DNA of 64,000 nt from Yponomeuta sedellus. Its lineage: Eukaryota > Arthropoda > Insecta > Lepidoptera > Yponomeutidae. The stretch is taken from positions 10,174,675 to 10,238,674 of the forward strand of contig OW203727.1 of the NCBI GenBank assembly GCA_934045075.1, in the 5' to 3' direction. The number at the start of each line of letters is the position of its first letter. The stretch's first letter is position 1. The position numbers were made by a program, and so were the translations under genes. Positions 4,111-62,320 of the stretch are shown here, piece after piece. Below the pieces are notes generated by a model. That model worked only from the letters and a program-made list of their open reading frames with translations, was not told where the DNA came from and did no database searches.

Positions 4111-4319
4111 TGTTGTCACAGTACTAATTAATAAGTATTGAAATAAATCCATTTGTGACTTATGAATAGATGTGGTATGTAGGAATTTAGCTATAGTGTC
4201 AATTTCTACGTAATAAAAAACATTACTGAACACTTGACGTTTTACACTATTTTTATTTTTAATGCACTAACCCGTGCTAAGGAACAAATTTAAAAACCTA
4301 TTTAGAGGCTAAAAATTTC

Positions 4320-4390
4320 ACCCATGCCGGGATTCGAACCCGCAACCTCTGGCTATCCGTACCAGCGCTCTACCAATTGAGCCAATGGGC
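4320..4390 (-). pseudogene. tRNA-like unit (tRL copy 1, antisense)
   Basis: A 71-nt cloverleaf-like sequence. The A box (tggctcaattgg) and B box (ggttcgaatcc) are intact, and the D, anticodon and T stems pair. The 5' acceptor strand is one base short, and position 33 is C instead of the near-universal U, so decoding is unlikely. A T5 run begins four bases past its 3' end. Confidence 0.75.
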
Positions 4391-4718
4391 GACTCACGGC
4401 ATCAGTGAAATTTCGAACCTCTTTTTGGTAGAGCGCTGGTACGGATAGCCAGAGGTTGCGGGTTCGAATCCCGGCATGGGTGAAATTTTTAGCCTCCAAA
4501 TAGGTTTTTAAATTTGTTCCTTAGCACGGGTTAGTGCATTAAAAATAAAAATAGTGTAATCATGTGGGTACAGTGATATCGTTCCGATGTTAAACCTAAC
4601 TTCAAAGTAGGTAGTCGGGGCTGTAAGTAATGCAATTTGCTTAAGTCAGATGTCGCTGTCTGTACGTAATACAGAGAATATTGTAAAGAGGTTCGAAATT
4701 TCACTGATGCCGTGAGTC

Positions 4719-4789
4719 GCCCATTGGCTCAATTGGTAGAGCGCTGGTACGGATAGCCAGAGGTTGCGGGTTCGAATCCCGGCATGGGT
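4719..4789 (+). pseudogene. tRNA-like unit (tRL copy 1, sense)
   Basis: Identical in design to the antisense unit of the same insertion: 71 nt, intact A and B boxes, anticodon-loop sequence acggata, and the run gaaattttt directly after the 3' end acting as a probable pol III terminator. Confidence 0.75.
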
Positions 4790-4909
4790 GAAATTTTTAG
4801 CCTCTAAATAGGTTTTTAAACTTGACGTTTTATTAAAATTAAGGTTTAAATCATAAAATAAATATAAACAAATAAATCTTATAAAAACTCGCAAGAGGGA
4901 TTATAATTA

Positions 4910-19740: not shown

Positions 19741-19770
19741 CTAAATTGAATAGTATATTGCCATAAATTA

Positions 19771-19819
19771 CTCTGTCAAGCAGATCATTACAGTTGTAAT
19801 GATCTTCTTGACAGAGGAG
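19771..19819. repeat. Inverted repeat at the LINE 5' truncation point
   Basis: 'ctctgtcaagcagatcatta' pairs with 'taatgatcttcttgacagag' at the exact place where recognisable RT coding begins, with one mismatch. It is typical of a 5' inversion formed during retrotransposition. Confidence 0.75.
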
Positions 19820-20982
19820 AGAGATGTGTCGGTATCTTTCTCGACCTCGCTAAGGCCTTCGACACTGTGTCTATACCAGTCTTACTGAGCAAGCTCGAAG
19901 GTCTTGGCATTAGAGGAGTAGCTTTGAGCTGGTTTGAAAGCTATCTTAATAATAGAAATCAGTGCATCAAGATAGTTGGACACAAGAGTAACATGAAAAG
20001 GGTCCATTTTGGGGTACCTCAAGTAGCATCCTGGGACCCACACTCTTTCTAGCATACCTTAACGATATATCCAGTCTCGACGGGGATACTACCAACCTAT
20101 ACTGCTATGCAGATGATACGGCATTAATAATTCACGGAAAATCCTGGGAAGATGCTTTTGCAAGAGCTGAAGAGGAGAAGTCAAATGTTTCTCAATGGCT
20201 AAATAAAAATCTTTTGACATTAAATATAAACAAAACAAAATACATCTGCTTCCACAAAACTAAAGCCTCCAAACCAAACATATCACCGAACATCAAAATA
20301 CATAACGGAGCAATTCATAATCATTTTTCCAACTTTACAAGCAGTCTGCTCGTGCCCTACTATAAACATGACAACTTCAATAAAGTACTTGAGCACAACC
20401 ATAGATGAAAACTTAAATTTTAAAAGCCATATATACACACTATCAGCAAAAGTCAGAAAAGTTATAAACATAATGAAAATTCTTCGCAACTCCGCAGACA
20501 TCGAACTCCTGAAATACATTTACTACGTCATATGCCAATCCCTTATTAATTACTGCATTTCGGTTTGGGGCGGATCGTGCAAAACAATCCTGATCGAACT
20601 GGAGCGAGCCCAGAGATCAGTTCTTAAAATAATGTACAAAAAACCAAGAAGGTACAGCACCAATGACCTGTATAAAGAACTGAAGGTCCTAAATGTTAGA
20701 CAACTCTTTGTTCTTAGTGCAGCACTTAAAATTAAAAAAGCAACAAAGGCCCCTTCAAGCGACAAAAAATCCAAAAAGATTTTCAAAATTGTAGTACCTT
20801 ACGTAAAAACCACATTTGCCCAAAGATTCGGAATGTTTTTACATCCATTTCTATATGACCGTATTTTAAAATTCTGTGACATAAGAGACAAAACATACCA
20901 CGAGACAAAAACAATAATAAAGAGATGGTTACTCACACAAACATACCTAGACACTGAACAGCTAGTACACACATCAATATGA
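19812..20982 (+). pseudogene. Broken LINE ORF2: reverse transcriptase
   Basis: RT motifs appear in order. 'FLDLAKAFDTV' is RT motif A, with its catalytic Asp (19837-19869). 'GIRGVALSWFESYLNNR' follows. 'GVPQ' is at 20013-20024. 'YADDTAL' holds the catalytic Asp pair and starts at 20106. The downstream region carries 'ITSIKYL..TIDENLNFK'-type and 'ELERAQRSVLKIMYKKPRR' segments up to the stop at 20980. It is 5'-truncated: the endonuclease and N-terminal RT are missing. Single-base losses or gains break it at about 20024, right after GVPQ, and again between 20310 and 20380. The family looks like a CR1/Jockey-group LINE. Non-functional. Confidence 0.85.
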
Positions 20983-21059
20983 CACATCATTTACCTAAAC
21001 ATAAAAACCCACAATACTACATATAAACTACATACTACACCTTTATGCATACACCTAAG
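20983..21059 (+). mobile_element. Probable LINE 3' UTR, first part
   Basis: Non-coding sequence directly following the RT frame. The same AT-rich texture resumes at 23031-23176 and 23427-23610 after two tRL insertions, so the UTR is probably split in three. This is inference from order; no second copy is present in the window. Confidence 0.4.
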
Positions 21060-21104
21060 GTAACTGTATATAATTTAAAAACCTATTTAGAGGCTAAAAA
21101 TTTC

Positions 21105-21175
21105 ACCCATGCCGGGATTCGAACCCGCAACCTCTGGCTATCCGTACCAGCGCTCTACCAATTGAGCCAATGGGC
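21105..21175 (-). pseudogene. tRNA-like unit, array 1 of 6
   Basis: 71 nt, with A box tggctcaattgg, B box ggttcgaatcc and a T5 run four bases past the 3' end. C at position 33. Nearly identical to the other five units in the array. Confidence 0.75.
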
Positions 21176-21413
21176 GACTCACGACATCAGTGAAATTTCG
21201 AACCCCTTTACAATATTATCTGTATTACGTACAGGCAGCGACATCTGACTTAAGCAAATTGCATTACTTACAGCCCCGACTACCTACTTTGCAGTTAGGT
21301 TTTAACATCGGAACGATATCACTGTACCCACATGATTACACTATTTTTATTTTTAATGCACTAACCCGTGCTAAGGAACAAATTTAAAAACCTATTTAGA
21401 GGCTAAAAATTTC

Positions 21414-21484
21414 ACCCATGCCGGGATTCGAACCCGCAACCTCTGGCTATCCGTACCAGCGCTCTACCAATTGAGCCAATGGGC
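21414..21484 (-). pseudogene. tRNA-like unit, array 2 of 6
   Basis: Exactly 309 bp from the previous unit, with the same sequence. Confidence 0.75.
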
Positions 21485-21722
21485 GACTCACGACATCAGT
21501 GAAATTTCGAACCCCTTTACAATATTATCTGTATTACGTACAGGCAGCGACATCTGACTTAAGCAAATTGCATTACTTACAGCCCCGACTACCTACTTTG
21601 CAGTTAGGTTTTAACATCGGAACGATATCACTGTACCCACATGATTACACTATTTTTATTTTTAATGCACTAACCCGTGCTAAGGAACAAATTTAAAAAC
21701 CTATTTAGAGGCTAAAAATTTC

Positions 21723-21793
21723 ACCCATGCCGGGATTCGAACCCGCAACCTCTGGCTATCCGTACCAGCGCTCTACCAATTGAGCCAATGGGC
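21723..21793 (-). pseudogene. tRNA-like unit, array 3 of 6
   Basis: Third antisense unit, 309 bp on. It is the last before the palindrome centre. Confidence 0.75.
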
Positions 21794-22026
21794 GACTCAC
21801 GACATCAGTGAAATTTCGAACCCCTTTACAATATTATCTGTATTACGTACAGGCAGCGACATCTGACTTAAGCAAATTGCATTACTTACAGCCCCGACTA
21901 CCTACTTTGCAGTTAGGTTTTAACATCGGAACGATATCACTGTACCCACATGATTACACTATTTTTATTTTTAATGCACTAACCCGTGCTAAGGAACAAA
22001 TTTAAAAACCTATTTAGAGGCTAAAA

Positions 22027-22043
22027 TTTTTTTTTTTTTTTTT
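22027..22043. repeat. Homopolymer T run at the palindrome centre
   Basis: An uninterrupted T run separates the antisense and sense arrays and replaces about 15 bp expected from perfect symmetry. It marks the fold or template-switch point. Confidence 0.8.
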
Positions 22044-22253
22044 AAATTTGTTCCTTAGCACGGGTTAGTGCATTAAAAATAAAAATAGTGTAATCATGTG
22101 GGTACAGTGATATCGTTCCGATGTTAAAACCTAACTGCAAAGTAGGTAGTCGGGGCTGTAAGTAATGCAATTTGCTTAAGTCAGATGTCGCTGCCTGTAC
22201 GTAATACAGATAATATTGTAAAGGGGTTCGAAATTTCACTGATGTCGTGAGTC

Positions 22254-22324
22254 GCCCATTGGCTCAATTGGTAGAGCGCTGGTACGGATAGCCAGAGGTT
22301 GCGGGTTCGAATCCCGGCATGGGT
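22254..22324 (+). pseudogene. tRNA-like unit, array 4 of 6
   Basis: First sense unit. Mirror image of 21723-21793 about the centre. Confidence 0.75.
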
Positions 22325-22562
22325 GAAATTTTTAGCCTCTAAATAGGTTTTTAAATTTGTTCCTTAGCACGGGTTAGTGCATTAAAAATAAAAATAGTGT
22401 AATCATGTGGGTACAGTGATATCGTTCCGATGTTAAAACCTAACTGCAAAGTAGGTAGTCGGGGCTGTAAGTAATGCAATTTGCTTAAGTCAGATGTCGC
22501 TGCCTGTACGTAATACAGATAATATTGTAAAGGGGTTCGAAATTTCACTGATGTCGTGAGTC

Positions 22563-22633
22563 GCCCATTGGCTCAATTGGTAGAGCGCTGGTACGGATAG
22601 CCAGAGGTTGCGGGTTCGAATCCCGGCATGGGT
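22563..22633 (+). pseudogene. tRNA-like unit, array 5 of 6
   Basis: Second sense unit, 309 bp on. Confidence 0.75.
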
Positions 22634-22871
22634 GAAATTTTTAGCCTCTAAATAGGTTTTTAAATTTGTTCCTTAGCACGGGTTAGTGCATTAAAAATAA
22701 AAATAGTGTAATCATGTGGGTACAGTGATATCGTTCCGATGTTAAAACCTAACTGCAAAGTAGGTAGTCGGGGCTGTAAGTAATGCAATTTGCTTAAGTC
22801 AGATGTCGCTGCCTGTACGTAATACAGATAATATTGTAAAGGGGTTCGAAATTTCACTGATGTCCTGAGTC

Positions 22872-22942
22872 GCCCATTGGCTCAATTGGTAGAGCGCTGG
22901 TACGGATAGCCAGAGGTTGCGGGTTCGAATCCCGGCATGGGT
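22872..22942 (+). pseudogene. tRNA-like unit, array 6 of 6
   Basis: Third sense unit. Flanks differ from the others at 22865 (c for g) and 22945 (g for a), so the outermost unit has begun to diverge. Confidence 0.75.
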
Positions 22943-23188
22943 GAGATTTTTAGCCTCTAAATAGGTTTTTAAATTTGTTCCTTAGCACGGGTTAGTGCAT
23001 TAAAAATAAAAATAGTGTAACTGTATATAACTTTATATATTTATTCATATTCATATTTACGCACCTTTATTCATTTATCATCATTGTATATATTTAAGTA
23101 TCATCTTTACTATTTATACACAATGGCTTTTCTCAGTAACGAGGAAAATGCAATAATTTAGTTTTTTTAAGTTTATAGCTTTAGTTTA

Positions 23189-23414
23189 CACTATTTTTAT
23201 TTTTAATGCACTAACCCGTGCTAAGGAACAAATTTAAAAACCTATTTAGAGGCTAAAAATTTCACCCATGCCGGGATTCGAACCCGCAACCTCTGGCTAT
23301 CCGTACCAGCGCTCTACCAATTGAGCAATTGGTAGAGCGCTGGTACGGATAGCCAGAGGTTGCGGGTTCGAATCCCGGCATGGGTGAAATTTTTAGCCTC
23401 TAAATAGGTTTTTA
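23189..23414. mobile_element. tRL element, copy 3: minimal 226-bp hairpin
   Basis: Bounded by the 12-bp duplication agctttagttta (23177-23188 and 23415-23426). Both family termini are present (left cactattttta, right ggtttttaa). Arms 23235-23322 and 23327-23414 are perfect 88-bp reverse complements with a 4-nt loop, gagc. Each arm holds most of a tRNA-like unit lacking its 5' acceptor strand. The 309-bp spacer is absent. Confidence 0.88.
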
Positions 23415-23689
23415 AGCTTTAGTTTAACTAAAATATTAAAATTTCACCTAAATTTTTGTGCAACACCCTTCCTGCCTCAGTGGCACTTTCTACTATTAGA
23501 AATTCACAAACGGGAGCCCACGATATAGGATTTACCTAGTGTGGGGCCCACTAGACACTGTACACTGCCAATTACCTTTTACTAAATAAATAATTTTTAC
23601 TTTTTACTTTAATGATGGTATACTATACTATAGAAATATTGCACAGTGTAATTTTACTGTATAACAGCACAGCAAAATTAATTAGGCGA

Positions 23690-23885
23690 TTAAGTTATTA
23701 TATTAATTTGTGCCTTTCGGAGTCGAGACTCTGGGGCCATGGGGTCCGGAGGCTAGACTCCTCTTTAAGGAGATCTCGTCGCGCCTAGTCGACGCTTCAG
23801 GAGAACCGAGGGCTGGTGCTTACTTTGGCCAAAGAATAAGCCTAGCCATACAGCGAGGCAATGCCGCCAGCCTTCAAAAAAAAAT
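23690..23885 (+). mobile_element. LINE ORF2 C-terminal fragment
   Basis: The frame reads 'GVETLGPWGPEARLLFKEIS', then 'RLVDASGEPRAGAYFGQRIS', then 'LAIQRGNAASL', followed by an A run. The ETxGPW...IQRGNAAS signature is a conserved C-terminal segment of a widespread insect non-LTR family. A second, diverged copy is on the minus strand at 46487-46930. RT core absent. Confidence 0.65.
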
Positions 23886-24097
23886 CTGATATAAAATAAT
23901 ATGATTATTACATAATATTACCCGCATTAGCTCGTGATGTGTATCATTTATTATTTACATAGTAAACTTATATTGAGGTTTTGCAAGTCGGTTTACTTAG
24001 AGACCGGTAAAGGATGGACTCTCACTTCAATTACATGAATCGCCAAAAGGTTTATTCTATAGAATTACTTTAACTTACCCGAGTAAAATATAGTAAA

Positions 24098-24330
24098 TTA
24101 TATAATTTTTTAATGCACTAACCCGTGCTAAGGACAAATTTAAAAACCTATTTAGAGGCTAAAAATTTCAACCATGCCGGGATTCGAACCCGCAACCTCT
24201 GGCTATCCGTGCCAGCGCTCTTTCCAACTGAGCTAATGGGCGACTCACCGGCATCAGTGAAATTTCGAACCTCTTTACAATATTCTCTGTATTACGTATG
24301 GGTGGAATTTTTAGCCTCTAAATAGGTTTT
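24098..24330. mobile_element. tRL element, copy 4 (older subfamily)
   Basis: Bounded by the 14-bp duplication taaaatatagtaaa (24084-24097 and 24331-24344). The left end is a variant, 'ttatataattttttaatg', and the right end is 'aataggtttt'. It carries one antisense tRNA-like unit and a short inverted right arm of about 30 bp. The sequence differs from the array (tcaccggcatcag, ggacaaat), showing at least two subfamilies. Confidence 0.8.
24170..24241 (-). pseudogene. tRNA-like unit (tRL copy 4)
   Basis: 72 nt. The A box is tagctcagttgg and the D loop is one base longer than in the array units. The B box is intact. Confidence 0.65.
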
Positions 24331-24644
24331 TAAAATATAGTAAAGTAAAACATTTTTTCCTTTCACCTTTGCGACCGGGATGAGTTTTATTGATAATATG
24401 AGAGAATTTATATAGGTAAATAATTTAATCCGATGTATCACAAAAATAGAGATATTTACTTTTTCTCTATGTGTACCAAAGGAATTCCATAACAATTAGG
24501 GAAAATAACTACAAGGATATATATGTACTACAATAGATAAAGTACGTTTATTATTTCTCAGTTACCTGATAATGGATCCTTATAAGACTCATTGCAAAAA
24601 TAATTAATGATATAAATTTTAATGTGCTATAATATGTATTGCTT

Positions 24645-25789: not shown

Positions 25790-26250
25790 GACACCAACAG
25801 TTACATACAGGCACATATATCGCACCCTCAGAACGAAAGAGGCCTAAGTCAAAAAACAGTGAAATTGAGTTACAATCATAGTCATAAAAAGGTATGCCGT
25901 GGATGGAAGATTCGCTATGCTCTTTTTTTACAATAAGTGCCTTTGTTTTACTATTCATCGGATAGAGCATACCTTTTTATGTCTCTCTATGATTGTTAGG
26001 TACTCAATATTTTGAGATTTTTTTGAGTATTTAAACTATTTTTTGACTTAGGCCTCTTTCGTTCTGAGGGTGCGAATATTGCTTCTGGTACCATACTAGG
26101 ATACCATGTGTCGTGAGAACTAGAAACAGTGACATAACAAACATGTAAACACCCAGGACCTGGGGTTATTTTTTACCCAGCCGGGTTTCGAACCCAGGAC
26201 CTCTTGCATGATAGGCAGATGCGCTACCGTTGCACCACAGAGGTTTTCTC
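25790..26250 (-). mobile_element. tRNA-derived SINE, split by a MITE
   Basis: On the minus strand the head has 'ggtgcaacggtagcgc' (A box) and 'gggttcgaaaccc' (B box, near 26185). The body 'gttctcacgacacatggtat' and end 'gtgcctgtatgtaa' follow. The copy at 50455-50636 matches block for block but is uninterrupted, so the 256-bp MITE at 25820-26075 is a later insertion. Confidence 0.75.
25820..26075. mobile_element. MITE with perfect 37-bp terminal inverted repeats
   Basis: TIRs 25820-25856 and 26039-26075 match exactly (tcgcaccctcagaacg... and complement). Further inner pairs (acaatcatag/ctatgattgt, aaaaaggtatgc/gcatacctttt) make it almost fully foldable. Comparison with the uninterrupted SINE at 50455 gives a 3-bp target duplication, most simply 'ata'. 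A 3-bp duplication would suit a PIF/Harbinger-like or CACTA-like transposase, but the termini do not settle the family. No coding capacity. Confidence 0.8.
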
Positions 26251-27800: not shown

Positions 27801-28331
27801 CTGTACAATCACAACACCTTTTTCCGAATAATCCGGTGACTATAACTCACTTTCTGATCACTGCATCTCGTGTCGAGGTCATCATTAAGACACCCCGTAG
27901 CATTTCCCCTCTGGCACTGCAGCTTTAAAAACAGAAAGTCCGGTAACTTCAACTCACTTTGTAGGAACTTAGTACAATAACACACACAAATTAACTGCTA
28001 GTAATTTTTCTTAGATTACGTTTATTTCAATTTAAAAGTATATTTGTGGAAGAGCGGGCCTTGTAGGGAAGGCCTCTGTTATTTCTGTACTTAATAAGAG
28101 GACCCAGCCTATACCTATTTGTCGTCCCTATATTTTTGCACCGATTTTTCTTTGTCAATTTTCATTTTTTAGATTTGACGAATTTTTTGTAAATGAATTT
28201 TATTTCATTATTTAAAAATTGTATACTATTATTATTTTATTTTTATATTTGACGAAGCTTTATGGAAATTAATGTCATTCAAAATGTTGTATGGAATTTT
28301 TCATAAATACGTAGTTATATTCTTTTTATAT

Positions 28332-28550
28332 GATATCGCTGTACCCACATGATTATATTCTTTTTAATGCACTAACCCGTGCTAAGGACAATTTTAAAAC
28401 CCTATTTAGAGGCTAGGTCGCGCGGTCAAGTCCCGGCATGGGTGGAATTTTTAGCCTCTCTCCAATAGGTTTTTAAATATTGTCCTTAGCACGGGTTAGT
28501 GCATTAAAAAGAATATAATTATGTGGGTACAGCGATATCACTCCGATGTA
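28332..28550. mobile_element. tRL element, copy 5: fold-back variant
   Basis: Left 'gatatcgctgtacccacatg' and right 'catgtgggtacagcgatatc'-like (28527-28550) are inverted. The arms include 'aatgcactaacccgtgctaa' and its complement. The loop holds only the 3' third of the tRNA-like unit (B-box half, tcaagtcccggcatgggt). It differs from the others in that both arms extend into the inter-unit spacer. I found no clear target duplication. Confidence 0.7.
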
Positions 28551-29480
28551 AAACCTTACTGCAAAGAAGGTACTCGGGGCTGAAGTGATGCAAATTACTT
28601 CAATAATTAGCATTCAGTTTTGATATGAACATTATTAGTAATTTTATAGTCTTGAGGTTGCTGTTAGGTCTGGCATTTCTTTTCGTTTGTAGTTACCTAA
28701 AATGTTACATAATTGAAAAAAAGTGTACTACTAATATTGATAAATGTTGTCTGCAGCTTTGCTAGATACTAAAATTGCTATTTAGTAGATATATTTTAGC
28801 TATCATACACTTAATATTTGGAAATATTGCTATAAAAGTAAAAATTTTAGTTTCAACATTTATCTAGCAAAAACGATATGTCGAAAAACAAAAAGTAACT
28901 TAATTTAATAACTTAACTAGTCAATATTCCCACATTTCGAGTCAATATTCCCACGTTAATTTTTTTTACAATAAGAAAAAATTCTGAAAAGTGCGAGCGA
29001 TGCAGAATTCTAGACGTAACAGCAGATTTAATAAGCTAACCTTTGGTTTTCATCCAAAAGAAATAAACGAAAAAATTAGGACTAACATTTCCGTCAGACC
29101 TTCTGTATGTTGTATTCCTATCCGGACGATACGAGCATTCCCTCACTCATAAATCTTGTATCTATCTACACAGAAGTACTTTCACCCGTCATTTCGGACC
29201 CTCCTCAATTTTCACGCGGCAAATTGAATTTGATCTGTAGCTGCGTGTTTAGTTGTGCTCACCTATGTTTCTATTTGCACATTCATGTGAATAAGTATCG
29301 AGAACACTTGCGAACACATTTATTATTTTTTATAGAGCCCAAAATATTACGCAAAAAATTATAGAAGAAATATGGACTTCGCTTGTAAAGATAAAATTAT
29401 GGTTAGATAATTTATATAAAGGGGTACTTAGATACAAAGAGAAAGATCAAGAGCTAACAAGAGAGGGATTTTGTTCACTA
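28551..29480. other. Unassigned AT-rich sequence
   Basis: The first 60 bp are still tRL spacer (ctcggggctgaagtgatgca). Nothing else recognised. Confidence 0.4.
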
Positions 29481-29491
29481 ACTTGTAGGTA

Positions 29492-29715
29492 ATACTCTTT
29501 TTTTTAATGCACTAACCCGTGCAAAGGACAACTTTAAAAACCTATTTAGTTTTGTACGTAATACAGAGAATATTGTAAAGAAGTTCGAAATTTCACTGAT
29601 GCCGGTGAGTCGCCCATTAGCTCAGTTGGAAAGAGCGCTGGCACGAATAGCCAGAGGTCGCGGGTTCGAATCCCAGCGTGGGTGGAATTTTTAGCCTCTA
29701 AATAGGTTTTTTATC
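29492..29715. mobile_element. tRL element, copy 6
   Basis: Bounded by the 11-bp duplication acttgtaggta (29481-29491 and 29716-29726). The left arm (about 60 bp) stops after 'aaacctatttag' and joins the spacer directly. One sense tRNA-like unit precedes the right terminus 'aataggttttttatc'. Confidence 0.8.
29612..29683 (+). pseudogene. tRNA-like unit (tRL copy 6)
   Basis: 72 nt. A box tagctcagttgg, anticodon loop acgaata, B box ggttcgaatcc. U33 again replaced by C. Confidence 0.65.
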
Positions 29716-30414
29716 ACTTGTAGGTATGCAAAAGAAAACAAAAATGAATATATTTTTTTTACTTAACCTTTATGTCTATGTCCTATTTCAATTAAGTCAA
29801 GAATTGTCGGCACTGGGCCTAAGACCATTCCGGCAGATGTTGGTCAGGATCACCTCTCCCAGGCCAGCATTGACTTAGATATCCGTCTTGTGGCACCCAC
29901 TCGATGGCGAATATCGCCCACCTATCCGGGTGCATTTGTAAGAAAATAAATAGGTACTTACATTACCAAGTACAGGTAGCTGTAAAATAATTAAATTAAG
30001 CCTTAAGTTATAAGAGCGCAACGCCAAAACTGCACTGCAGTTTGGCGAAATTTGTAAAACCAAAAAAAGGTTATTTTTTTGCTATTAATAAAAAAAAATT
30101 TCACTGACCTGACCAGCCCAGCTGATCAAGGTCAAGATAAAAGTTTTACTCCACTATTGGGTAGCGATATTTCACTTTACGCGGTGAAATAAAGCGACAT
30201 GGCGATTGCTGATAGTTGAATACAACTTTTATAGTGACGTTGTGTTTTTCAATTAATATTATTAAGATATTCAACATTGTAATTTGTAAGATTTTTTCTT
30301 TTATAAGTTGACCGATTATTATTTATTATTACTTGTTAACGTGTAAAGTCATCATAGCTGGCAAAGTTTTATATTAAGATAAAAGTTTTAAAGACTAAAA
30401 ATTCAGGGAACTAG

Positions 30415-31270: not shown

Positions 31271-31480
31271 GTATCGTATCGACTATTTCTAAATAAGACC
31301 AGAACTATAAAATTCTTAATATATTTTGCAAGAAGTTGCTTTGTTAATCACTTGATGGTGCTTCTGATATATTAATCTTCATTGTTAGATAACACTGCTG
31401 CTATTGCTAAAACAAATAAAAAAATCGCTAAAAGACCAAAATTGTATATTCATTGAGTATCTTTGTACAGAGACCAGAGA

Positions 31481-31645
31481 CTGCCACTTGCCACACTTGA
31501 TCCTGACAGATCACCTTCGCTTCATCAACGTTCATAAGTCGTTACGTACACGCACGCCAGTTCCGGGTACTTTTTACAAGTACCGTTTTTGGCAAGTGGC
31601 AGTCCCTGGTTTCTTCCTACCCCTCTGGGATACGTGACGTTATGT
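31481..31645. mobile_element. LINE 3'-end fragments, head-to-head inverted
   Basis: A minus-strand copy (31481-31585: 'gatcaccttcgcttcatcaa', 'gttccgggtac') abuts a plus-strand copy (31590-31645: 'ggcaagtggcagtccctggt', 'cccctctgggatac'). The two form an inverted repeat. They probably arose by inversion during integration. Confidence 0.65.
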
Positions 31646-34864: not shown

Positions 34865-35189
34865 TATTCATTCATTCATTCATTCATTCATTCATTCATT
34901 CATTCATTCATTCATTCATTCATTCATTCATTCATTCATTCATTCATTCATTCATTCATTCATTCATTCATTCATTCATTCATTCATTCATTTATTCATT
35001 CATTCATTCATTCATTCATTCATTCATTCATTCATTCATTCATTCATTCATTCATTCATTCATTCATTCATTCATTCATTCATTCATTCATTCATTCATT
35101 CATTCATTCATTCATTCATTCATTCATTCATTCATTCGTTCGTTCGTTCGTTCGTTCGTTCGTTCGTTCGTTCGTTCGTTCATTCATTC
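34865..35189. repeat. (ATTC)n microsatellite with an internal (GTTC)n block
   Basis: About 325 bp of ATTC tetranucleotides with one t-for-c interruption near 34991, and a uniform CGTT block from 35137 to 35180. Its long frame (Phe-Ile-His-Ser repeats) is an artefact. It lies directly downstream of a SINE. Confidence 0.95.
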
Positions 35190-43210: not shown

Positions 43211-43332
43211 AAATGTTTTGTTGAAAAAAAGATAATAATAGGCAAAGGAAATTCCCATCAAATAAAAATCGAAGCTGAACTACACTACGTATTCACAAGT
43301 TTAGTACAAAAGACTTTGTTGGAAAAAATCGT

Positions 43333-43530
43333 TGCTGCCTGTACGTAATACAGAGAGTATTGTAAAGAGGTTCGACATTTCACTGATGCCGGTCAGTCGC
43401 CCATTAGCTCAGTTGGGAGAGCGCTGGCATGGTTAGAGGTCGCGGGTTCGAGTCCCGGCATGGGTGGAATTTTTAGCGTTTAAATAGGTTTTTAAAATAG
43501 TCACGGGTTAGAGCATTAAAAAAAAGAATA
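43333..43530 (+). mobile_element. tRL element, copy 7 (single sense unit)
   Basis: Begins inside the family spacer (gctgcctgtacgtaatac), runs through one tRNA-like unit and ends at the conserved terminus 'gcattaaaaaaaagaata'. It lacks an inverted arm, so it is a simple 5'-truncated copy. No long duplication is visible, but the minisatellite phase gives the insertion length exactly. Confidence 0.8.
43399..43465 (+). pseudogene. tRNA-like unit (tRL copy 7), anticodon arm deleted
   Basis: 67 nt. A box tagctcagttgg and B box ggttcgagtcc are intact, but the anticodon loop and one stem strand are partly missing (gcgctggcatggttagagg). Confidence 0.65.
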
Positions 43531-44121
43531 TAATAATAGCAAAGTGCATCACAAGCAATTAAAAATCGAAGCTGAACTTCCATACATATGCACAAGTTTA
43601 GTAAAAAAGATTTTGTTGAAAAAAAAAGGTAATAATAGCAAAATGAATCCATATCATTTAAAAATGGAAGCTGAACTTCATTACGTATTCACAAGTTTAG
43701 TACAAAACATTTTGTTGGAAAAAAAATGTAATAATAGCAAAGTGAATCCCAATAAATTAAAAATCGAAGCTGAACTTCACCACGTATTCACTCACGTAAT
43801 TTGACTGTGACAGAAACTCAGGGCGAGAATGTAAGTCCATTAATCATTCGTGGCCTACTTCAGTGTTGGTTTCTATTTGTTACTTTATTTCCCGCCCCGC
43901 AGCTTTGTGCGAGAGCCATCGTTTGTGCGGGCATTTTGTTGTTGGGGATGAAAAAGAAAAGTTCTGTGTGTTTAGGTACGTCCAATTAGAAATGCTATCC
44001 GAGTCTTTTAAGGTTCTTTTTTCAACAAATTGTGTGCCCACTACAGTCTTGAGGACTTTTCATGACGTAGTTGGACAGATGGGAAATTTTACCTTTTTTA
44101 AGCTAACTATTTTATCATATC

Positions 44122-44465: not shown

Positions 44466-45019
44466 ACTATCTTCCTTTACCTCCAGTCTATTTAATTTAT
44501 AACATAAACAACTTGAGATAGTAACTTCTCGCAACTATTGTACCTGCCTTGTGTTAAAACCGTGTAAAACTTAGTTCTTTACTTTATGGTTTAGCTAAGC
44601 TAGCTTTTTTATAAGCTTAACCGTAGCCACTAATCCTCTGCTGTAATTTAAAAGCATAAATACGTAATCTGCTTATCACGACAAAATAAATCTCACTCTC
44701 GTGAGCTTTTCTTTCCAACCACGGATTTATTATGAGATATGACACGAAAAATATTTTAACGAATACAATCCGACGGCGGCGCTCATACAGTATTTTAAAT
44801 TTAGCTTAATTAATACACCTTTGAGCTTGGATTCCAGTTGTGCGTGATATACAGTAGGCTAGATTTAAAGTAAAATTAGCACCTAGTTAATCCTTAATAA
44901 GGCAATGTCATTATAGCTCCCACATTTAATTGAACTTTATCAACTTCAAACAAAGTCTAAGTCCAATGAAAAATTGTTCCTACCCATGTCCGATTAAGGG
45001 TAAAAAACTATATTGTTTT

Positions 45020-45192
45020 AAACGCCAATTTAGAGGCTAAAAATTCCACCCATGCCGGGACTCGAACCCGCGACCTGTGGCTAACCGTGCCAGAGGTCGC
45101 GGGTTCGTGTCCCAGCATGGATGGAATTTTTAGCCTCTAAATAGTTGTTTAAAATTGTCCTTAGCACGGGTTAATGAATTAAAAAGAACATA
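45020..45192. mobile_element. tRL element, copy 8
   Basis: Bounded by the 10-bp duplication atattgtttt (45010-45019 and 45193-45202). An antisense partial tRNA-like unit is followed by a sense partial unit (aggtcgcgggttcgtgtccc), then the terminus 'aattaaaaagaacataat'. Fold-back with about 75-bp arms and a short loop around 'ctgtggctaaccgtgccag'. Confidence 0.78.
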
Positions 45193-45631
45193 ATATTGTT
45201 TTCACACCTCCTGCTCGACAATGCCTTATCACGTACCGTCAAATATCATCGTAAAGCATAGCCTTGTCTCTCGAGGGCAATAATAATGAAGAATTTCCCT
45301 AGGGAATAAAGTGATTTGAATTTAGAATGTCAAAATTCGCATGAAAACTATGAAGAAGCCCCGCATTGCAATTCGAAATTCGAATTGTTGTTCGAAACTC
45401 ACCCCTTTTTTCTTTTTTTTCTGAACTACTGTGTCGTGTGACCGCGCGAAACACCAATAAAAAAAAGAAAAAAAGGCGCGAATTGCAAGTACGAATTTAA
45501 AAGTTATATTCAATTTAAGTTGCTAAGCCGTAAAAGAGTGTGGACTTTATATTAATAAATATTTTTCAACTTATGCAGCCCTGTCTTTTTATTGTCTCCC
45601 AGATGGTGTGAAAAGTAGAGTATTCACCTCT

Positions 45632-47427: not shown

Positions 47428-47674
47428 TTACATACATACATAGATACATACATACATACATACATACAAACAAACAAACAAACATACATACATACATACA
47501 TACATACATACATACATACATACAAACAAACATACATACATACATACATACATACATACATACATACATACATACATACATACATACATACATACATACA
47601 TACATACATACATACATACATACATACATACATACATACATACATACATACATACATACATACATACATACATA
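47428..47674. repeat. (TACA)n microsatellite, about 245 bp
   Basis: Catata-type tetranucleotide array with caaa-variant interruptions at 47465-47485 and 47524-47530. Read on the minus strand it is the 3' tail of the adjoining LINE fragment. Cys-Met-Tyr-Val frames are artefacts. Confidence 0.95.
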
Positions 47675-48054
47675 ATCTAACGCCTGTATCCCAGAGGGGT
47701 AGGCAGAGACCAGGGACTCCTGGGGATCCTGACAAATCTCCTTAGCTTCATCAACGTTCATAAGTCGTTGCATGCACGCACGCCGGTTCCGGGTACTTTT
47801 TATCTTTCCCTTTGCTAATACATCCCCTATTTGGTCGATGTATGTCCGTCTGGGACGTCCCTTACCAGCCCTTCCACTATTCGCCTATTCGCAATATATA
47901 TTTGTTTCGTCAATCTTTCTGCCTTCATCCTCTCCACATGTCCAAACCAACGCAACATTCCTTTCTCAATTCTAGTCACTACATCCTCTTTCAGTCCACA
48001 ACGTTCTCTAATCAGACTATTGCGTATCCTGTCATTCAAAGTAACACTACACAA
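47428..48054 (-). mobile_element. LINE ORF2 terminus with a microsatellite tail
   Basis: On the minus strand it reads 'RERCGLKEDVVTRIEKGMLR', then 'WFGHVERMKAERLTKQIY', then, after frame changes, 'RLMNVDEAKEICQD' and 'VSAYPSGIQALD'. These are the conserved C-terminal motifs of an insect LINE ORF2 (downstream of RT, WFGHVERM). The element ends in a TATG run (47428-47674), which is probably its own 3' tail expanded. RT core and endonuclease are absent. Confidence 0.8.
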
Positions 48055-50454: not shown

Positions 50455-50636
50455 GGGCACATACATTGCTTCTGGCCTCACACTAAGATACCCTGTATCG
50501 TGGGAACCAGAAACAACGACATCACAAACATGTAAACGTCCAAGACCTAGGTTTTTTTTGTCCCCAACCGGGGTTCAAACCCGGGACCTCTTGCATGGTA
50601 GGCAAATGCGCTACCGCTTCGCCACAGAGGTTAGGT
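50455..50636 (-). mobile_element. tRNA-derived SINE, uninterrupted copy
   Basis: Minus strand: A-box region 'tggcgaagcggtagcgcatt' and B box 'gggtttgaaccc', then body 'gtttctggttcccacgatac' and end 'gtgcccgtatgtaa'. Same family as 25790-26250, and it supplies the empty site for the MITE there. Confidence 0.75.
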
Positions 50637-53850: not shown

Positions 53851-53892
53851 ATTTAAATGTACTGCAAAATTGGGGTTTGCAACTATAGATAT

Positions 53893-54043
53893 AATTATAT
53901 TATTTCTAATGCACTAACTCGTGCTAAGGACAATTTTAAAAACCTGTTTAGAGGCTAAAAAATCCACCCATTCCGGAATTCGAACCCGCAACCTCTGGCT
54001 ATGCCAGCGCTCTTTCCAACTGAATATTTTTAGCCTCTAAAAT
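53893..54043. mobile_element. tRL element, copy 9 (eroded)
   Basis: Left 'ttatattatttctaatgcac', antisense partial tRNA-like unit (ccggaattcgaacccgcaac) with the anticodon arm deleted, then a short right remnant 'tttttagcctctaaaat'. No target duplication seen. Confidence 0.65.
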
Positions 54044-58432: not shown

Positions 58433-58674
58433 TTTATATATATAATTTTTTTGGTTTGTTTTTGTTTTGGAGGTCGCGCCATGGTGAAGTTATTGAGGAG
58501 TAGACCCTTTTTATGGTCATAAGGATAAAGTTACGCTACAAATTGTTTTTTTTTTTGCGCCACTCCATGCTGCTTATAAGTTTAACTAAATATATGTTAC
58601 ACCATTTTTATTTTTAATGCACTAACCCGTGCTAAGGAACAAATTTAAAAACCTATTTAGAGGCTAAAAATTTC

Positions 58675-58745
58675 ACCCATGCCGGGATTCGAACCCGCAA
58701 CCTCTGGCTATCCGTACCAGCGCTCTACCAATTGAGCCAATGGGC
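58675..58745 (-). pseudogene. tRNA-like unit (tRL copy 10)
   Basis: 71 nt, same sequence as the copy 2 units, with A and B boxes intact. Confidence 0.75.
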
Positions 58746-59334
58746 GACTCACAACATCAGTGAAATTTCTAACCTCTTTACAATATTCTCTGTATTACGT
58801 ACAGGCAGCGACATCTGACTTAAGCAAATTGCATTACTTACAGCCCCGACTACCTACTTTGCAGTTAGGTTTAACATCGGAACGATATCACTGTACCCAC
58901 ATGATTACACCATTTTTATTTTTAATGCACTAACCCGTGCTAAGGAACAAATTTAAAAACCTATTAAGAGGCTAAAAATTTCACCCATGCCGGGATTCGA
59001 ACCCGCAACCTCTGGCTATCCGTACCAGCGCTCTACTCAATTGGTAGAGCGCTGGTACGGATAGCCAGAGGTTGCGGGTTCGAATCCCGGCATGGGTGAA
59101 ATTTTTAGCCTCTAAATAGGTTTTTAAATTTGTTCCTTAGCACGGGTTAGTGCATTAAAAATAAAAATGGTGTAATCATGTGGGTACAGTGATATCGTTC
59201 CGATGTTAAACCTAACTGCAAAGTAGGTAGTCGGGGCTGTAAGTAATGCAATTTGCTTAAGTCAGATGTCGCTGCCTGTACGTAATACAGAGAATATTGT
59301 AAAGAGGTTCGAAATTTCACTGATGTTGTGAGTC

Positions 59335-59405
59335 GCCCATTGGCTCAATTGGTAGAGCGCTGGTACGGATAGCCAGAGGTTGCGGGTTCGAATCCCGGCA
59401 TGGGT
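59335..59405 (+). pseudogene. tRNA-like unit (tRL copy 10)
   Basis: 71 nt, sense, followed by gaaattttt. Confidence 0.75.
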
Positions 59406-59642
59406 GAAATTTTTAGCCTCTTAATAGGTTTTTAAATTTGTTCCTTAGCACGGGTTAGTGCATTAAAAATAAAAATGGTGTAATCATGTGGGTACAGTGA
59501 TATCGTTCCGATGTTAAACCTAACTGCAAAGTAGGTAGTCGGGGCTGTAAGTAATGCAATTTGCTTAAGTCAGATGTCGCTGCCTGTACGTAATACAGAG
59601 AATATTGTAAAGAGGTTAGAAATTTCACTGATGTTGTGAGTC

Positions 59643-59713
59643 GCCCATTGGCTCAATTGGTAGAGCGCTGGTACGGATAGCCAGAGGTTGCGGGTTCGAA
59701 TCCCGGCATGGGT
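59643..59713 (+). pseudogene. tRNA-like unit (tRL copy 10)
   Basis: 71 nt, 308 bp after the previous unit, adjacent to the right terminus of the element. Confidence 0.75.
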
Positions 59714-59759
59714 GAAATTTTTAGCCTCTAAATAGGTTTTTAAATATATGTTTTGAATA

Positions 59760-60475: not shown

Positions 60476-60491
60476 TGCCATGAACGATCAT

Positions 60492-60612
60492 TATATTCTT
60501 TTTAATGCACTAACACATGCTAAGGACAATTTTGAAAACCTGGCTAACCGAGGTCAGCGGGGTCGAGTCCCGGCATGGGTGGAATTGTTAGCCTCTAAAT
60601 AGGTTTTCAAAA
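60492..60612. mobile_element. tRL element, copy 11 (121 bp)
   Basis: Bounded by the 12-bp duplication atgaacgatcat (60480-60491 and 60613-60624). Left terminus 'tatattctttttaatgcact', right 'aaataggttttcaaa'. Only the 3' half of the tRNA-like unit is left (ggtcgagtcccggcatgggt). The smallest copy with both termini. Confidence 0.82.
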
Positions 60613-60624
60613 ATGAACGATCAT

Positions 60625-61775: not shown

Positions 61776-62261
61776 TTCTACCAACACATTATTCTTTGTG
61801 TAAGAGCGAAACTTGGTCGGACTCGTCCGACAAGAAATCAAGCAGGTAAGTGATTCCGCAATTGAGTTAAGAATTATTTTACCGTTTGGGCACTTCGGGC
61901 CTTTTGACTGGAACTCGCAGTTGGCATGCTTAAAAAGAACTACCGCAAAGTAGACAGTTTAAATATAAATTGATGAAGGTTCTTAGGAAGGGACTACAAG
62001 CAAGGAAATCGTCTCCAAATAAACATCGGCTAAAGTAAAGAAGCGATATTGACTATACTTATTGTATACCGATAATACACTTATGTAGCTACTCGCATTC
62101 ACCTCTGAAACCCTGCAGCTCGTAAAAAAATAAAGTCGTAAAGATAAAATATATAATTTATGGAGAAGTTAAAAAGTGTCCCAGGCGGACATACTTCGAT
62201 TAAATAGGGGCAGGATAAAATGTACCCAAAACCGGCGTATGAGCAAGCAACGACTAATGAA

Positions 62262-62320
62262 CGTTGATGAAGCGAAGGTGATCTGTCAGGATCGTGGCAA
62301 AGTAGCAGTCTCTGGGGGGT
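62262..62320 (+). mobile_element. LINE 3'-end fragment
   Basis: 'aatgaacgttgatgaagcga', 'aggtgatctgtcaggatcgt' matches the LINE at 47428-48054. The rest of its 3' end follows separately at 62607. Confidence 0.65.

Follow-up and report, generated by a model that had tools for sequence, protein, structure and literature searches.

Penelope-like elements (PLEs) of the Penelope/Poseidon type are described as leaving tandem or partial-tandem copies with an inverted terminal copy and a tail at one end only (PMC3846280, PMC11167929). In the account of rotifer PLEs, copies carry direct and inverted pseudo-LTRs (pLTRs), a 31-bp tail that is optional on one of them, and target duplications (TSDs) of 8-10 bp or none; one host gene is reported to have been mobilised in trans between pLTRs (PMC3846280). 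A purified anole PLE is described as cleaving AT-rich DNA on both strands and extending each, with reverse transcription (RT) starting within the RNA at two adjacent sites and the tail being the sequence between them. The start site in vitro is given as the same for both strands, and the later steps of PLE integration are said to be still awaiting validation (PMC11167929). A hammerhead motif is reported as common in pLTRs and is often carried by the PLEs described.

Short, non-autonomous Penelope elements have been reported from Heliconius butterflies, in a description whose accessible text gives no structure and mentions no tRNA part (PMC6685494). Animal (non-LTR) retrozymes, with noncoding tandem units of ~150-400 bp and TSDs of more than 4 bp (PMC7229834, PMC8969392), are the nearest non-autonomous relatives suspected of using PLEs (PMC7229834, PMC8969392, PMC7761336). 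They are defined by hammerhead ribozymes, and the word 'inverted' is absent from PMC7229834. The tRNA SINEs of Lepidoptera (PxSE1, MsSE1, SfSE1, Metulj) are described as having a tRNA-derived Pol III promoter, thousands of copies and short-repeat 3′ tails, with LINE partners reported or expected for some; PxSE1, MsSE1 and SfSE1 measure ~260-300 bp, and a TSD of 13 bp is given for a moth LINE (PMC8010984). A tRNA-derived Pol III promoter also occurs in a non-SINE retroelement, the TRIM Helenus, which has a tRNA-derived LTR and is recognized by its LTRs, PBS/PPT and 4-5 bp TSDs (PMC10886601). Among the matches listed in the open full-text literature, a body that does not extend to subscription papers and Repbase reports, we found none that describes a PLE moving a tRNA-headed element.

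Here we analyse a repeat family in a 64-kb stretch of Yponomeuta sedellus DNA (hereafter, the window) and in the rest of its host genome. The family is short, as are the Heliconius elements; it shares noncoding tandem units with retrozymes, and a similar unit length and high copy number with lepidopteran tRNA SINEs. Unlike PLEs, it has no ORF and contains a tRNA-like sequence; unlike both PLEs and retrozymes, it lacks a hammerhead. It differs from lepidopteran SINEs in its two fixed ends and tandem inverted arms, and its TSDs of 9-15 bp are longer than those of Helenus. We consider it likely that this is a tRNA-headed, non-autonomous, SINE-like retroelement family moved by PLE machinery.

The repeat unit and its copies in the window

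The repeat unit is 309 bp long, noncoding, and includes a tRNA-like part; the arms of the copies are built from such units or pieces of them. Positions within it are numbered by phase, phase 1 being the first base 3′ of AATAGGTTTTTAA, which places site B, one of two types of outer end, at phase 309. The other, site A, falls near phase 45 of the next unit, ~45 nt past site B on the same strand. The stretch from B to A, which we call the tail, contains a small GCAC..GTGC hairpin that is among the best-conserved stretches in an alignment of the 11 window copies. In a covariance-model search, the Rfam tRNA model scores 38 bits on young units, and the tRNA-like head contains predicted Pol III A and B boxes, as the head of a tRNA SINE would. 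ARAGORN labels 12 of its 15 window hits tRNA-Ser(GGA), a label that we take as nominal because the hits lack a long variable arm.

No hammerhead was found in the unit, either with Rfam models, applied to the whole window with gathering cut-offs and to 21030-24400 with relaxed ones, or in a scan for the core motif. A loose form of that motif occurs nine times in the window and never inside the 11 copies.

Table 1. Copies of the family in the window (E1-E11) and features of the unit. Positions count from the first base of the window; phases refer to the 309-bp unit.
Feature	Position	Strand	Description
E1	4232..4832		TSD 4232-4244 / 4820-4832 (13 bp); A-arm 4242-4424 (-), B-arm 4425-4819 (+)
E2	21060..23030		TSD 21060-21073 / 23017-23030 (14 bp)
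E2 arms			B-arm 21072-22030 (-, 3.1 units); T-run join 22031-22038; A-arm 22039-23017 (+, 3.2 units)
E3	23177..23426		TSD 23177-23188 / 23415-23426 (12 bp); near-perfect hairpin, both arms stop within the tRNA-like part
E4	24084..24344		TSD 24084-24097 / 24331-24344 (14 bp); left A-arm, right B-arm
E5	28316..28600		Old, two arms, without TSD; A motif at left end (by eye), right end at phase 132, neither A nor B
E6	29481..29726		TSD 29481-29491 / 29716-29726 (11 bp); left A-arm, right B-arm
E7	43331..43537	+	One arm, ends at A, without TSD
E8	45010..45202		TSD 45010-45019 / 45193-45202 (10 bp); left B-arm, right A-arm
E9	53890..54041		Decayed, two arms, without TSD; left end A, right end stops at phase 298
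E10	58587..59752		TSD 58587-58598 / 59741-59752 (12 bp); A-arm 58597-59043 (-), B-arm 59036-59743 (+)
E11	60480..60624		TSD 60480-60491 / 60613-60624 (12 bp); old; left A-arm, right B-arm
One 309-bp unit	22355..22663	+	Phase 1-309; within E2
tRNA-like part of this unit	22563..22635	+	Phase 209-281
A box			Phase 215-226
B box			Phase 259-269; intact, GGTTCGAATCC
T5 runs			Phase 284 and 303; two per unit
Site B	22342..22354	+	Phase 297-309; AATAGGTTTTTAA; internal occurrence in E2
Tail of E2	22973..23017	+	Phase 1-45, site B to site A; conserved GCAC..GTGC hairpin

A seeded search with the unit finds 11 copies in the window (Table 1). Copies of the family, in the window and elsewhere, range from ~83% to 100% identity to the reference unit; E4 is an older copy, with an A-arm 92% identical. 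No further window copy falls below E = 0.01 with a sequence model of the tail region, and tail-like DNA outside the copies amounts to matches of 12-14 bases. The unit search also returned a weak tRNA-only match at 26171-26207, part of another tRNA-like sequence. Two copies of a different tRNA-like family (ACCTCTGTGGYG...) are present in the window, at 26174-26244 and 50560-50631 (minus strand); these may be either relatives of a tRNA gene or a SINE.

Where a copy has two arms, these face outward and meet at a variable inner join. One arm is 45 bp longer than the other at its outer end, and the ends thus do not form a symmetric terminal inverted repeat. All eight TSD-bearing copies pair one A end with one B end, and E5, E7 and E9 show no clean A+B pair. 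E7 is inserted in a 99-bp minisatellite (43520-43791), other repeats of which carry the uninterrupted sequence.

The original prediction had listed eight loci with direct repeats at two precise termini and an interior of 309-bp units. All eight repeat pairs are real, exact and 10-14 bp long, at the coordinates listed, the seventh to within one base (58587/59741). The list of loci was correct as far as it went and missed three copies (28332-28600, 43331-43537 and 53900-54041), none with an abutting duplication. Its termini are indeed precise, and the alternative end sequences that it gave reduce to the same two sites ~45 nt apart, one of each per TSD-bearing copy; end sequences at A and B vary by subfamily, and the sites do not. 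The described interior applies to three of the 11 loci, the only ones with complete units (4242-4824, 21072-23020 and 58597-59745); the remaining loci hold shorter pieces, two-armed except for one.

Outer ends and target duplications across the genome

Repeats of this length are rare in the window by chance. When flanks of different window loci were paired (110 pairs), 86 pairs had no repeat of at least 6 bp, 22 had one of 6-7 bp, one had 8 bp and one had 12 bp; among 3,000 random position pairs, five had a repeat of at least 10 bp. The eight window TSDs are AT-rich (78% vs 62%, P 0.002 by random placement).

The host genome (657.5 Mb, 57 contigs) was then searched with the unit, and 40 of 1,408 candidates, with at least 143 matches, were scored. 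The held-out set comprises 36 places outside the window, with 40 clusters, and leans to young, long copies rather than being random, since the places were chosen for near-complete units. Seven clusters cut by the ends of the fetched DNA were dropped, leaving 33 complete ones. Twenty-five of these pair A with B at their outer ends, none pairs A with A or B with B, and arms range from less than one to about seven units. Every A+B cluster has an exact TSD: 10 bp in one, 12 bp in five, 13 bp in 13, 14 bp in four and 15 bp in two. The longest repeat among 600 mismatched flank pairs was 9 bp, reached six times.

At site A, most cDNAs begin at or shortly before CACTATTTTTA, often preceded by T, TA or TTA, which may derive from the target or from the template. 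At site B, most of the 25 begin with TTAAAAACC or a few bases from it; in two (L028 and L029), the B start lies further in, at CTATT. The remaining eight complete clusters include three one-armed copies with duplications of 9-12 bp (L012, L021, L042), two irregular copies with duplications of 11 and 14 bp (L018, L022), two in which no duplication was found (L016, L037) and a 22-bp fragment (L023). Across complete clusters, TSDs thus span 9-15 bp.

Two insertions outside the window have empty paralogous sites that carry the target once, as expected if the duplications mark insertion. Once joined, the flanks of L019 give a 279-column alignment with L039 at 82% identity, with the duplicated word once at the joint. 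Those of L033 match L038 and window positions 47660-47833, again with the word once, here with one substitution. These come from a comparison of 38 joined flanks with the fetched DNA and the window, in which three (L019, L033 and L044) had a spanning match; the L044 match, to L021, aligned too poorly at the joint to be used. The sequence at 47660-47833 belongs to one repeat family with 31476-31576 and 62205-62313, and L033 is inserted in a member of this family.

The family is abundant. An exact 27-nt tail core occurs 49,543 times in the 657.5 Mb (24,906 + 24,637; reversed control, 0), a count in which multi-unit copies figure more than once. A sample not chosen for the element (200 kb, taken as one 10-kb stretch from a common position on each of 20 contigs) contains 26 clusters, or ~130 per Mb, many of them old or fragmentary; the 120-bp cluster threshold may divide one old copy of L054 in two. 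Sixteen of the 26 have one arm only and ten have two, seven of these being A+B within about ten bases, as read from printed phases. The original prediction expected duplications at most genomic copies. This is true of complete clusters of near-intact units, with repeats in 25 of 25 A+B clusters and five of the eight others, and holds only in part in the 200-kb sample, where a repeat of at least 9 bp, a tolerance with no matched control, flanks nine of 26. Beyond the host, viral contigs contained no match to any of three patterns, of which two were exact and the third had a single two-letter position, and genome contigs contained none to two of the three, in a search from which the window genome's own or near records were possibly excluded.

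Source of the two arms and their inner joins

We compared the two arms of elements with exactly two arms (22 of the 25 A+B clusters, E1, E2 and E10). Seventeen own-arm pairs overlap by at least 100 nt (14 held-out, three from the window) and have 54 variants shared and 24 discordant. Discordance is 3.1 per kb in own-arm pairs vs 13.9 per kb in 423 mismatched comparisons. An arm's own partner is its unique best match in eight of the 17 pairs; in the other nine it is tied with or behind one to eight of 21 others. In E10, a change at phase 184 is found in the last unit only and one at phase 296 in the last-but-one unit only, in the same register in both arms when counted from the outer ends. Because the arms share variants and the unit order of E10 matches, both cDNAs of a copy were probably made from one tandem source and, judging from the variants of E10, both of its cDNAs would have begun in the last unit of that source.

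E10 also bears on how such arms could otherwise arise. A snap-back origin, with one arm templated by its partner, is rejected for this copy, in which the arms are in register from the outer ends rather than from the inner join and end differently. A circular RNA template of one unit is likewise rejected, as the units of E10 differ in fixed order; a two-unit circle remains compatible.

The inner joins give a less regular picture. Six of 21 window inner ends fall within 13 nt, for which P is 0.018 if ends are taken as spread evenly over the unit and 0.19 if over phase 142-303. Transcription starting at the tRNA-like 5′ end was considered as a cause and dropped, as the signal is absent in held-out copies: two of 44 inner ends lie at phase 205-226, with 3.1 expected. 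Phase 1-141 holds none of the 21 inner ends in the window vs 14 of 44 in the held-out set. The latter (L009-L044) are concentrated at phase 258-309, a stretch that takes in the 3′ end of the tRNA-like part and the bases shortly past it (19 of 44 vs 7.4 expected, P 4e-05), a post hoc observation; tRNA 3′-end processing or RT pausing are our guesses at its cause. In E2, a homopolymer T run sits exactly at the head-to-head join, as if cDNA ends had met there via A/T slippage.

The excess at phase 258-309 would suit a retrozyme-like element copied from circular RNA, in which the tRNA-like part replaces the ribozyme as processing signal. Tandem units of ~300 bp, TSDs of more than 4 bp and suspected dependence on PLEs are likewise traits of animal retrozymes as described (PMC7229834, PMC8969392). 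The family nevertheless has no hammerhead, and the fixed order of the E10 units excludes a one-unit circle, though not a two-unit one; we regard this explanation as improbable.

A proposed route of insertion and its alternatives

We return to movement by PLE machinery. The family has the tandem units of PLEs, as 309-bp tandems in its longer copies, and an inverted terminal copy with a tail of ~45 nt on one end, in eight of eight TSD-bearing window copies and 25 of 33 complete clusters elsewhere. Its TSDs lie within ~8-15 bp at AT-rich sites, those of described PLEs being ~8-10 bp or absent. This pattern matches the inverted pseudo-LTR and tail of PLEs, and not LINE-driven SINEs or MITEs; A and B correspond to the two neighbouring RT start sites described for the anole PLE in vitro (PMC11167929). 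The original prediction of a Penelope-driven non-autonomous retroelement distinct from a standard SINE or MITE is partly supported, fitting the TSDs, empty sites, tandem and inverted arms, tail and two precise ends. Against the reading stand the lack of a hammerhead in the unit, the eight of 33 complete clusters that are not A+B, the window copies E5, E7 and E9, and the 16 one-armed clusters of the 200-kb sample.

In the route that we propose, tandem units would be transcribed, probably by Pol III from the A and B boxes of the tRNA-like head, and a PLE RT-endonuclease would recognize the B-to-A tail with its conserved hairpin. Both strands of an AT-rich target would be nicked 10-15 bp apart, a spacing read from the TSDs and empty sites, presumably by the same enzyme. 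Each target strand would then prime DNA synthesis on RNA of shared origin, one at A and the other at B, in keeping with the pattern of ends and shared variants. As the arms show, the two cDNAs extend back across anything from under one to about seven units and meet head to head at a join whose position varies; fill-in would complete the duplication. The constant pairing of A with B points to a single RT dimer that makes two copies of one RNA, one onto each target strand. More specifically, we lean towards a SINE that has switched its helper from a LINE to a PLE, each full insertion being made by reverse-transcribing RNA of a single source locus twice, and the PLE dimer using A and B as obligate partners on opposite target strands.

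Two points sit uneasily with this route. The two T5 runs of each unit should stop Pol III, yet arms reach seven units, requiring read-through or another polymerase. Strict A+B pairing also goes beyond the in vitro result, since the purified PLE is described without a strand difference in start site; in the PLE copies described the tail is called optional, while A+B pairing is the rule in complete copies here.

An ordinary tRNA-SINE moved by a LINE, its inverted arms being made by twin priming, would account for the tRNA head, and TSDs of 10-15 bp are within the LINE range. Twin priming, however, leaves one fixed end, the RNA 3′ end, and one random end, while most complete clusters here have two fixed outer ends, one at each of two sites. 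Instead of the single fixed 3′ end of a tRNA SINE, with its poly(A) or short-repeat tail, the 25 A+B copies outside the window have two fixed ends, with no poly(A), microsatellite or other short-repeat tail at either, and longer copies consist of tandem units. Given the A/B rule, this explanation is disfavoured, and we think it unlikely. A transposase-driven DNA element of foldback or MITE-like type, also disfavoured, could have inverted arms and TSDs, but the variable TSD length (9-15 bp), asymmetric ends (one arm 45 bp longer outside) and freely varying arm length and join make it very hard to credit. Palindromes and tandem repeats, both present here, assemble badly, but an assembly artefact or tandem-array noise is highly implausible given an architecture that recurs at tens of places whose TSDs differ, the empty sites and the spread of identity among copies.

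If the PLE reading is true, the definition of SINEs would widen beyond LINE-dependent elements, and in such genomes part of what is annotated as SINE-like or as 'tRNA gene' may derive from PLEs. PLE insertion is poorly known, and the copies would record their helper's mechanism: with A+B pairing, source-matched arms and countable joins, models of PLE integration become testable by computation. The family appears to offer very many short noncoding insertions in one genome, young ones included.

No PLE partner was found among 156 open frames of at least 110 aa, of which a motif filter kept 13, in a scan of less than 0.1% of the genome; the RT-like frames among the 13 are LINE-like in appearance, as judged by eye. 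LINE reverse-transcriptase remains in the window, at 19750-20982 (+), end ~80 bp before E2. They match Pfam RVT_1 just below the curated cut-off. Of 16 protein relatives, the single one that carries an organism name, at 35% identity, comes from the winter moth Operophtera brumata, in keeping with DNA of a moth or butterfly. Long (ATTC)n and (TACA)n microsatellites also open long ORFs in the window, at 34866-35189 and 47429-47674.
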